Both the position numbers and the translations under genes were made by a program. From positions 62,001 through 126,000 of the forward strand of contig JAFSXU010000060.1 of the NCBI GenBank assembly GCA_017443895.1: a stretch of 64,000 bases of DNA, given 5' to 3'. The notes beneath the pieces are model-generated. The model was not told where the DNA came from. It did no database searches and saw only the letters and a program-made list of their open reading frames with translations. Below are positions 26,470-29,078 of this stretch, one piece after another. The stretch's first letter is position 1. Each line of letters starts with the position of its first letter. The stretch is from Clostridia bacterium. Its GTDB lineage: Bacteria; Bacillota; Clostridia; UBA1381.

Positions 26470-27111
26470 ATGTATACAAAACACAAATGGCAATCTGATA
26501 CATATTATAATTTCAACTATGCACAGTATTTACCTAAAGATTTTGACGAGGATAAGGAATATCCGTTGGTGCTGTTTTTGCACGGAGCAGGCGAGCGTGG
26601 CGACGATTTGGATATTGCCGCAAGGCACGGGTATATGAAATATGTGCGTGAAGAGGGCAAGGAATATCCGTTTATATGTATCCTACCGCAATGCCCAAAT
26701 AATAAATACTGGGGTTGCTATACAGAGTCATTGCTTGCATTCTTGGACTATATTTGTAAAACTCTGCCCGTTGATAAGAAAAGGATTTACCTTACAGGCT
26801 TTTCAATGGGCGGAACGGGTACATTTATGCTTGCAATGGCGGCGCCCGATAGGTTTGCGGCACTTGCGCCCGTGTGCGGATCGGGAATTGTATGGAATGC
26901 AGGTATAATAAGCAAAATACCGATATTTATGTACCATGGCGACTGCGATCCGATAGTGCCCGTAACAGAAAGCGTAAATATGCTAAGGGCGATTAACCAA
27001 AAGGGCGGAAATGCAAGATTAAAACTCTGCTACAGCGTCGGGCATGAGGCGTGGGATCATGCATATACAGACGATGCGCTCATTACATGGCTTATGGAAC
27101 AGCATTTGTAG
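26470..27111 (+). CDS. Alpha/beta-hydrolase esterase (phospholipase/carboxylesterase type)
   Basis: 213 residues. Oxyanion segment 'FLHGAGERGDD' (37-46), nucleophile Ser112 in 'TGFSMGGTG', acid at Asp158 or Asp160 in 'HGDCDPIVPV', and catalytic His192 in 'GHEAW' or His197. This arrangement is shared with acyl-esterases of the CE1/feruloyl-esterase-like group, so it may strip acyl groups from imported oligosaccharides. No signal peptide. It starts two bases after the GH38-like stop, so the two genes are translated together. Confidence 0.82.
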   Translation: MYTKHKWQSDTYYNFNYAQYLPKDFDEDKEYPLVLFLHGAGERGDDLDIAARHGYMKYVREEGKEYPFICILPQCPNNKYWGCYTESLLAFLDYICKTLPVDKKRIYLTGFSMGGTGTFMLAMAAPDRFAALAPVCGSGIVWNAGIISKIPIFMYHGDCDPIVPVTESVNMLRAINQKGGNARLKLCYSVGHEAWDHAYTDDALITWLMEQHL

Positions 27112-27143: not shown

Positions 27144-27224
27144 TTTTGGAGTTTACACAAGGTCGGGGTATTCTACATAAATGAAGATAGGAGTGGTAGC
27201 TAAGGACTTTATTTTCATCAATGC
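27144..27224 (+). repeat. Left imperfect inverted repeat of a possible cassette
   Basis: Runs TTTTGGAGTTTAC...TCGGGG...ACATAAATGA...GACTTTAT...TCA.GC. It matches the reverse complement of 28069-28139, with the first 13 bases identical and the rest conserved with a few gaps. A local hairpin also exists (27131-27140 with 27169-27178, 9 of 10 paired). Confidence 0.65.
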
Positions 27225-27253
27225 AAAAAAAATACAAGAAAGGAGAAATGTTA

Positions 27254-27883
27254 ATGAAGAAACTTTTATTATGCATGGTATTTGCGTTGTGCGCAGCTGC
27301 GAGCGCAAATGCATATGCTGCAGATGCGACATATGATAAAGACACAGGCATTGTCAATATACCCGATGAAACACGAAATGTCAAAACTGTGATTATAACA
27401 GATGAAGATCCGACACAGAAAACGATAGAAGATAAGAATATTTACTATATGGATCAGGCATTACAGGGTTCACCGCTTAGTGCAGCCACAGGCTTTGCAA
27501 TCAAGGAAGATCCGCCTGCAGGTACATATTATATGACATTAAGGTATAGTGATGACACAACCGACAACAAAGAGTTTACAGTAATAAAAGAAATTATGCC
27601 GGGTGATTTGCCGATGAACCCAATAGGAACATCAATATTTGTAACAACTGATGCTGTTGATTCGTCAAATTATAGCAGTATAAAGGTAGGATTTACAAAA
27701 GACGGAACGACAACATACTTAGGCTGTAATTTGGATGAGCTTGGATGGAGTGCACTTAAATTAGGTGACACTAATGGAGCATTTGTCGGTGTTCAGTTAA
27801 ACGGTGCAGATGGATATGACAGTGTATCCATGTGGTTATCACCGGACATATTAGAAGACATAGGAGGTAACAGCAATGAATAA
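27254..27883 (+). CDS. Small secreted protein, unknown function
   Basis: 209 residues from the ATG at 27254 (AAAGGAG nine bases upstream; an in-frame ATG at 27248 is too close). A signal peptide (about 1-23, ending A-N-A-Y-A-A) is followed by a short beta-rich domain ('GTYYMTLRYSDDTTD...EFTVI', Ig-like in pattern) and a second beta region ending 'VSMWLSPDILEDIGG'. It contains no enzyme motif that I recognise. It and the next small ORF lie inside the inverted-repeat pair, and its codon use is slightly more A/T-rich than its neighbours, compatible with transfer (impression, not measured). Confidence 0.75.
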   Translation: MKKLLLCMVFALCAAASANAYAADATYDKDTGIVNIPDETRNVKTVIITDEDPTQKTIEDKNIYYMDQALQGSPLSAATGFAIKEDPPAGTYYMTLRYSDDTTDNKEFTVIKEIMPGDLPMNPIGTSIFVTTDAVDSSNYSSIKVGFTKDGTTTYLGCNLDELGWSALKLGDTNGAFVGVQLNGADGYDSVSMWLSPDILEDIGGNSNE

Positions 27884-28043
27884 ATATGTATCTCCAATTA
27901 TAGAAATTTCCGAGTTTAAAGGTGAGGATATTCTGACTGCGTCAACCGCAATAAGTGCAGATTTACAGCAGTGGGCTAACGAAAATGGCAATGCTGTAAC
28001 GGCACAGGTGGATTATGATAGCCTATATACTTACTACAACTAA
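27876..28043 (+). CDS. 55-residue peptide ORF, translationally coupled
   Basis: The ATG at 27876 overlaps the last eight bases of the secreted-protein gene, with a perfect AGGAGG at 27863-27868. The product starts M-N-K-Y-V-S-P-I-I-E-I and ends D-Y-D-S-L-Y-T-Y-Y-N. It is acidic, has a Thr/Ser/Ala-rich centre, no Cys and a Tyr-rich tail. No signal peptide and no membrane segment. Short proteins with an 'M-x-K-Y-x-x-P-x-I-E' start are common in Clostridia; some are peptide precursors, but no modification enzyme is visible here, so function is unassigned. Confidence 0.65.
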   Translation: MNKYVSPIIEISEFKGEDILTASTAISADLQQWANENGNAVTAQVDYDSLYTYYN

Positions 28044-28068
28044 TTAAACAAAAGAAACACTCCAAAAG

Positions 28069-28139
28069 GCTTTGACGGATAAAGTCTGAGGCTATTTCGT
28101 CATTTTGTGGGAAACCCCGATTTTATGTAAACTCCAAAA
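28069..28139 (-). repeat. Right imperfect inverted repeat of a possible cassette
   Basis: Reverse complement of this segment aligns with 27144-27224 from TTTTGGAGTTTAC through TCGGGGT, ACA-AAATGA, GACTTTAT and TCA-A-GC. No transposase gene and no clear target-site duplication lie outside the repeats. The pair encloses about 1 kb. Confidence 0.65.
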
Positions 28140-28155
28140 TATTATTATGATTTAG

Positions 28156-28188
28156 AACAGGGCTATTCACATATGGTCCTGTTTTTTT
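28156..28188 (+). terminator. Rho-independent terminator
   Basis: Arms 28156-28163 and 28076-type partner 28176-28183 pair over eight positions (one wobble) around a 12-base loop, followed by seven T. It closes the transcript containing the small genes and insulates the DeoR promoter. It lies just outside the right inverted repeat. Confidence 0.75.
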
Positions 28189-28270: not shown

Positions 28271-28314
28271 CGAAATGTAAACGAAATTAAATTGAAAGTA
28301 AAAGGAAAGTGCAA
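28271..28314 (+). promoter_or_regulatory. Four-unit 11-bp tandem repeat, probable DeoR operator
   Basis: Units start at 28271, 28282, 28293 and 28304, each (c/t/g)GAAA(t/g) followed by an A/T-rich five-base tail, one helical turn apart, directly after the -10. DeoR-family repressors such as AgaR are reported to use repeated TTTC/GAAA-type direct repeats, so autoregulation by the next gene is likely. Confidence 0.6.
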
Positions 28315-29078
28315 TGGACACATATGAAAGAAGAAAGCGAATAGCGGAGCTTGTCAATGAAAAGGGCAGAGTAACGGTGAAAGAGCTTGGCGAGATGTTT
28401 GAAATATCCGAGGTTACGGTGCGTATGGACTTAACGGAGCTTGAAGCACAAGGACTTTTGACCAGAGTTCACGGCGGTGCGGTAAGCTCGTACAGGGCAT
28501 ACTATAATATGAGCTTGCAGCAGCGTATGTCATCGGGGATTGATAATAAAAAGGAAATAGCAAAGTATGCCGCAAGCATGATAAAAGACGGCGATACAAT
28601 TATGCTAAACTCAGGAACGACAACGCTTTTGGTGCTAAGAGCGATACCGCAGAACATAAATTTAAGTATTGTTACAAATTCGCTTGATATTGCTTTAGAG
28701 GCAGGTGCAAACCCGAATTTCAGGGTGGTGCTTTTGGGTGGTGCGATAAATGCAAAATACCATTTTTCATACGGCGCCGATGCAAATGCACAGCTTGCAA
28801 GATATAATGCCGATAAGCTGTTCTTGTCTGTAGACGGAATAGATTATGAAAACGGGTTTACCACATATTACGATTTGGAAACGGATGTTGATGCGCTTAT
28901 GCTTAAAAATTCAGTGGCGAAAATAATCGTTGCCGATTCAAGTAAGATTGCAAGGCGCGCGTTTGCAACAATTGCAGCTCTTGAAGAGGCGGACTATATT
29001 ATCACAAACAAGGATGTTTATGCCGAGAGTGATATTGAAAAGCTAAAAAAGAAAGTCGGAAATATAATTACTGTTTAA
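28314..29078 (+). CDS. DeoR-family transcriptional repressor
   Basis: 254 residues. N-terminal helix-turn-helix (about 5-57) with 'VTVKELGEMFEISEVTVRMDL' and 'GLLTRVHGGAV', then a phosphosugar-sensing domain ('LNSGTTTLLVLR', 'IVADSSKIARRAFATI') typical of the DeoR C-terminus. It is the first gene behind the consensus promoter and repeat operator. The family usually responds to a phosphorylated intermediate of the sugar pathway encoded downstream, here probably the product of the FGGY kinase or the FSA substrate. Confidence 0.93.
   Translation: MDTYERRKRIAELVNEKGRVTVKELGEMFEISEVTVRMDLTELEAQGLLTRVHGGAVSSYRAYYNMSLQQRMSSGIDNKKEIAKYAASMIKDGDTIMLNSGTTTLLVLRAIPQNINLSIVTNSLDIALEAGANPNFRVVLLGGAINAKYHFSYGADANAQLARYNADKLFLSVDGIDYENGFTTYYDLETDVDALMLKNSVAKIIVADSSKIARRAFATIAALEEADYIITNKDVYAESDIEKLKKKVGNIITV

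Follow-up and report, generated by a model that had tools for sequence, protein, structure and literature searches.

The inverted repeats at positions 27144-28139 of the window (the whole 64,000-nucleotide stretch of DNA analysed) probably bound a mobile cassette that carries two genes and lacks a transposase, the terminal repeats defining the unit that is copied or moved. So far the cassette is found in two species of one genus: four copies lie at unrelated places in the genome under study, G000 (the window copy and those on contigs C29, C57 and C72), and two in a second species, G001 (MAG RUG12844, uncultured Ruminococcus sp.). At the level of sequence, comparison of these copies establishes paired ends on all of them, tip-to-tip identity between the C57 and C72 copies, conservation of the ends between species, and a match of the ends to those of IS256-family elements. 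The ends, of about 36–40 bp, would have their origin in the terminal repeats of the IS256 (Mutator) family, or have a recognition sequence in common with them. The copying route would be transposition, the most likely mover being an IS256-type transposase that acts, or formerly acted, in trans. If this is right, IS256-type ends have spread small accessory genes behind the carbohydrate-use operons of gut bacteria with no transposase aboard.

The window cassette spans 996 nt (27144-28139). Its parts and its immediate context are as follows.

26470..27111, + strand: upstream esterase gene (context), with its stop codon 32 nt before the left tip
27144..27187, + strand: left inverted repeat, with the tip TTTTGGAGTTTACACAA and then GGTCGGGGTATTC; matched by model R1 at E 2.6e-8
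27190..27200, + strand: conserved 5'-UTR block GGAGTGGTAGC, also present in the second species; GGAGTGGTA in C29 and C72
27254..27883, + strand: gene 1, a 209-aa protein with a signal-like segment at its N-terminus; one domain, a beta-sandwich, is modelled with confidence
27876..28043, + strand: gene 2, a 55-codon ORF that overlaps gene 1; family MxKYxxPxxEIxxFxxEDIITAS
28097..28139, − strand: right inverted repeat, with the same tip as the left on the minus strand (TTTTGGAGTTTACATAAAATCGGGG); matched by model R1 at E 2.5e-8
28157..28188, + strand: terminator-like hairpin and T-run (context), immediately beyond the right repeat, identified by eye
28314..29078, + strand: DeoR-family regulator (context), downstream and outside the unit

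The original prediction was of inverted repeats of about 75 bp, conserved in blocks over 70-80 bases and sharing an identical 13-base tip. The tip TTTTGGAGTTTAC is exact on both arms, at 27144-27156 (+) and 28127-28139 (−), and the repeat itself is real: the local alignment score of the arms is 46, compared to 18.0 ± 2.2 (maximum 28) for 300 dinucleotide shuffles and to a next-best score of 30 among 248 control pairs taken from the window with the same spacing. The predicted length has to be shortened for the window copy, which supports 37-44 nt (37 nt at 81% identity ungapped, 44 nt at 82% with one gap), although the arms of the orthologous G001 copy align over 76 nt at 72%. By itself, the tip is uninformative, because the 13-mer, with one mismatch allowed, occurs in G000 no more often than its reversed control (28 matches each). 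Searches of Rfam gave no match anywhere in the window. A promoter role for the left repeat, with TTTACA as the -35 box, was considered and set aside; by eye, the spacing and the -10 candidates vary among the copies.

As had been predicted, only a small secreted protein and a 55-residue ORF lie inside the window cassette, and no transposase was found there. The cargo is read as a putative secreted protein with a beta-sandwich fold, together with a short peptide, and may be of benefit to the host. The AlphaFold model of the gene 1 protein is confident only for residues 22-112, which form the beta-sandwich, and its matches in the PDB include macroglobulin and immunoglobulin-like domains, none of them below E 0.001. 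Sequence searches against NCBIfam, PHROGs and the PDB gave no useful match for gene 1 or gene 2; a weak Pfam/PHROGs match of gene 1 to 'Spackle' was set aside, as it covers residues 1-59 and so includes the signal-like segment. Gene 1 is under purifying selection, with a dN/dS of about 0.26. Between C57 and C72, gene 1 is conserved (dN 0.03, dS 0.13), and the second ORF has a dN of 0.18 that exceeds its dS of 0.09, these being small numbers. The locus G000:C19:39647 (L071) encodes a large repeat-domain protein to which the C-terminal part of gene 1 has been fused; a short ORF of the same type comes next, and the locus has no inverted repeats.

A protein-level search for gene 1 homologues in 61 genomes identified the G000 paralogues with inverted repeats on C29, C57 and C72, which have 44-51% amino acid identity, and the two in G001. 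The repeat is present at both ends in all six cassettes, which are 1.0-1.07 kb in size, the left tip lying 105-129 nt 5' of gene 1 and the right tip about 260-280 nt 3' of it. Gene 2 accompanies gene 1 in every cassette, and also in several homologues that have no inverted repeats. Around the distant homologues (C36:32914 and C19 in G000, and those in G002, G012, G013, G018 and G029) no matching inverted repeats were found; the short second ORF is still present in several of them. From the 12 cassette ends, a model of the end based on sequence alone was built and applied to 70 family genomes. It returned exactly 8 strong matches in G000 (E<=2e-6; next match 0.003), corresponding to both ends of four cassettes, and exactly four cassette matches in G001, corresponding to both ends of two; a scan of genome contigs for more cassettes gave nothing beyond the two G001 copies. 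The other copies of the ends in the genus thus always enclose the same two genes, in support of the predicted non-autonomous cassette with passenger genes. That proposal also survives the two objections raised along with it, that the ends might have no other copy and that the repeats might not be conserved: copies exist, and the G001 repeats are conserved. The inner block of the arms is GGT-like in the eight ends of G000 and GAT-like in the four of G001, the orthologous pair included, a possible case of genome-wide concerted change of the cassette ends.

Evidence for movement comes from the flanks. The C57 and C72 copies are 91% identical over 1.04 kb, the similarity extending past the tips by 5 and 11 nt; no similarity was found in the flanks beyond this repeat-to-repeat segment, so that the two share the unit from tip to tip in unrelated surroundings. 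A PFL-activase gene precedes the left end in C57, with coding similarity ending about 16 nt from the tip; its 94% copy on C26 has no cassette behind it, and neither does its G001 homologue. Cassettes are likewise lacking at the GH3 paralogue G001:C210 and downstream of the esterase orthologue in another genus (G016). The original prediction proposed to look for empty sites; the only relative with the window locus has the cassette. The genes ahead of the cassettes comprise the esterase, a GH88, the PFL-activase, an SLH-domain protein region and a GH3. Most copies follow carbohydrate-use genes directly and in the same orientation, and in five of the six the distance from the upstream stop codon is 13-41 nt, a same-strand placement that selected operon structure could also cause. 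As candidates for a target-site duplication, the best words shared by the flanks are TAAAATG at C57 and GATATATA at C29, which are short and AT-rich and stand at unequal offsets; the insertions may be old. The left end in C72 appeared to cut a GH43-like gene, which is only a lead: Pfam gave no match, and the best PDB matches were of GH43 type but non-significant (E 0.07 and 0.45).

The relationship of the ends to the IS256 family was revealed by a 17-mer, TTTTGGAGTTTRCACAA, which, with one mismatch allowed, has 29 matches in the 70 family genomes compared to 3 for its reversed control. Beyond the genus, many of the matches mark the right end of an IS256-family element, where they follow the element's 3' part, and these have a common inner consensus, GATTATATnnYCA, and a common outer sequence, GGGATATTCCC. 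In one complete element, L122, the transposase is enclosed by left and right ends (IRL/IRR) that match, and the IS256-family end at G007:C63 is scored by the cassette-only model at E 1.4e-9, better than the cassettes themselves. By terminal repeat sequence, then, the cassette ends match the IS256 family, whose elements with this same end occur in sister genera of the same bacterial family. No match to PF00872 (Mutator-type transposase) was found in G000, a 77-contig assembly, from which repeats may therefore be missing. The original prediction had suggested a search for the tip beside transposase genes; it is found there in the sister-genus elements, but with the ends reversed relative to the cassette.

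This reversal is consistent. At eight loci with recognisable transposase sequence (G082:C100, G070:C3, G001:C69, G021:C54, G021:C3, G064:C307, G012:C43 and G013:C107), the GGGATATTCCC side is outermost in nine of nine ends. In all six cassettes the same side faces inward, so that the outer side of the IS end is turned toward the genes rather than lying at the border of the element. Given the copy-out/paste-in scheme for IS256 (PMC7780238), an IS256 transposase would cut between the repeat and the cassette, and by this analysis the ordinary IS256 reaction would not be expected to carry the cassette along with its ends. The layout is that of an IS circle junction, or of a composite element's inner ends, the genes standing where the spacer would be; formally, the cassette resembles an IS256 circle at its TIR-TIR junction, with 1 kb of genes replacing the 6-8 bp spacer. 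That the cassette moves with inside-out ends of this kind, in the polarity of a circle junction and with its two genes where the short spacer would be, we consider possible but doubtful. If true, it would imply a distinct enzyme that reads the ends from the other side, or an undescribed junction-based route of gene capture, and in either event the polarity poses a concrete puzzle as to how copy-out/paste-in elements capture and move neighbouring genes.

Of the known systems, the cassette behaves most like the mobile insertion cassettes (MIC), such as MIC231A1 of Bacillus cereus, which is moved in trans by the IS231A transposase, and mic-qnrD (PMC3913671). Like these, it has passenger genes between two imperfect, IS-like inverted repeats, has no internal transposase gene, and is present in several copies. 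It differs from them in that its cargo is a small secreted protein and a peptide, its ends are of the IS256 rather than the IS231 type and are reversed in polarity relative to the IS, and no IS256-type transposase is found in the genome; given this polarity and the lack of a matching transposase in G000, equivalence of the ends to those of a trans-acting IS is not observed. A target duplication, of 8-9 bp in the IS256 family, may also be lacking, none that is consistent or convincing having been found. With that family (for example ISCth4; PMC7780238), the cassette shares the end sequence TATnATCATTTTGGAGTTTACACAAAAnnGGGATATTCC, 36-40 bp in length and common to the sister-genus elements, but it has no PF00872 transposase and its ends are inside-out. 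MITEs with IS256-type ends are also non-autonomous with IS-like ends, but have no genes, whereas the cassette carries two conserved ones; an example of such a MITE, at G093:C204, is a palindrome of about 95 bp with normal polarity. Because of the reversed polarity, we place the cassette with neither MIC nor IS256, despite its MIC-like behaviour.

The polarity would be explained exactly if each cassette were a relic of a composite IS256 element, the gene pair having once lain between two IS256 copies whose bodies were lost and whose ends remained, since inner ends (or an IS circle junction) turn their outer sides toward the passenger. Solo right ends of IS256 type without a recognisable IS body do occur in sister genera, for example at G087:C54, 22 nt after a stop codon. 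Such a history would nevertheless require both IS bodies to have disappeared from all six cassettes, the losses stopping at almost the same base each time; the C57/C72 identity stops just outside the tips, and G000 has neither a PF00872 transposase nor, by the end model, any other solo end. We therefore regard this origin as unlikely.

The orthologous locus in G001 bears on the age of the window copy and on whether the family moves at all. G001 holds the window cassette at the same place with both repeats kept, in a region collinear over 26 kb that breaks exactly at the right tip (window 28139 / G001:C155:35299). Beyond the tip, G001 continues into a transaldolase region, the counterpart of which is on C64 in G000. 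The window copy, being common to two species, is old. Synonymous sites are saturated between the two orthologues (dS >1), yet 33 of 34 core repeat bases are identical, which indicates that the ends are maintained. Such conservation in place could mean that the cassettes are an immobile, dispersed paralogous family whose repeats are retained for a function at the RNA level or in regulation, such as a long-range stem that frees the transcript from the operon mRNA or a pair of operators. The same-strand placement directly behind upstream genes fits such a role, as does the variation of the two arms of each cassette together. But the tip-to-tip identity of C57 and C72 in unrelated flanks and the cassette-free PFL-activase copy point to insertion, the match to IS256 ends would be left unexplained, and homologous gene pairs elsewhere manage without repeats; we judge an immobile family to be quite improbable, and prefer the mobile cassette.

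C29 and C72 share about 550 bp of downstream flank at 79%, and their genes diverge more than those of C57 and C72; this right-flank sequence suggests some exchange by recombination. Copying of the cassettes by homologous recombination or gene conversion without a transposase would fit this flank, as if a C57-type cassette had replaced that of C72, but would not require both C57/C72 breakpoints to fall at the repeat tips and is very improbable as the general route.

A second dispersed repeat was observed in the same genomes. It is about 205 nt long, with inverted ends of about 28 bp and an internal CCTCTCTTTCCCTCTC stretch, and is present in G000 at C29:5124 and 5417, on C72 (two copies), and at C57:3240, C77:6577, C26:4845, C36:37329 and C14:18395 (partial), and in G001 on C114. 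It lies within about 60-160 bp downstream of the right repeat in four of the six cassettes, the two orthologous window-type copies being the exceptions. The repeat has no Rfam match; RNAalifold predicts 43 pairs, 12 of them with compensatory changes, making it a candidate for an unrecognised structured RNA or a MITE.
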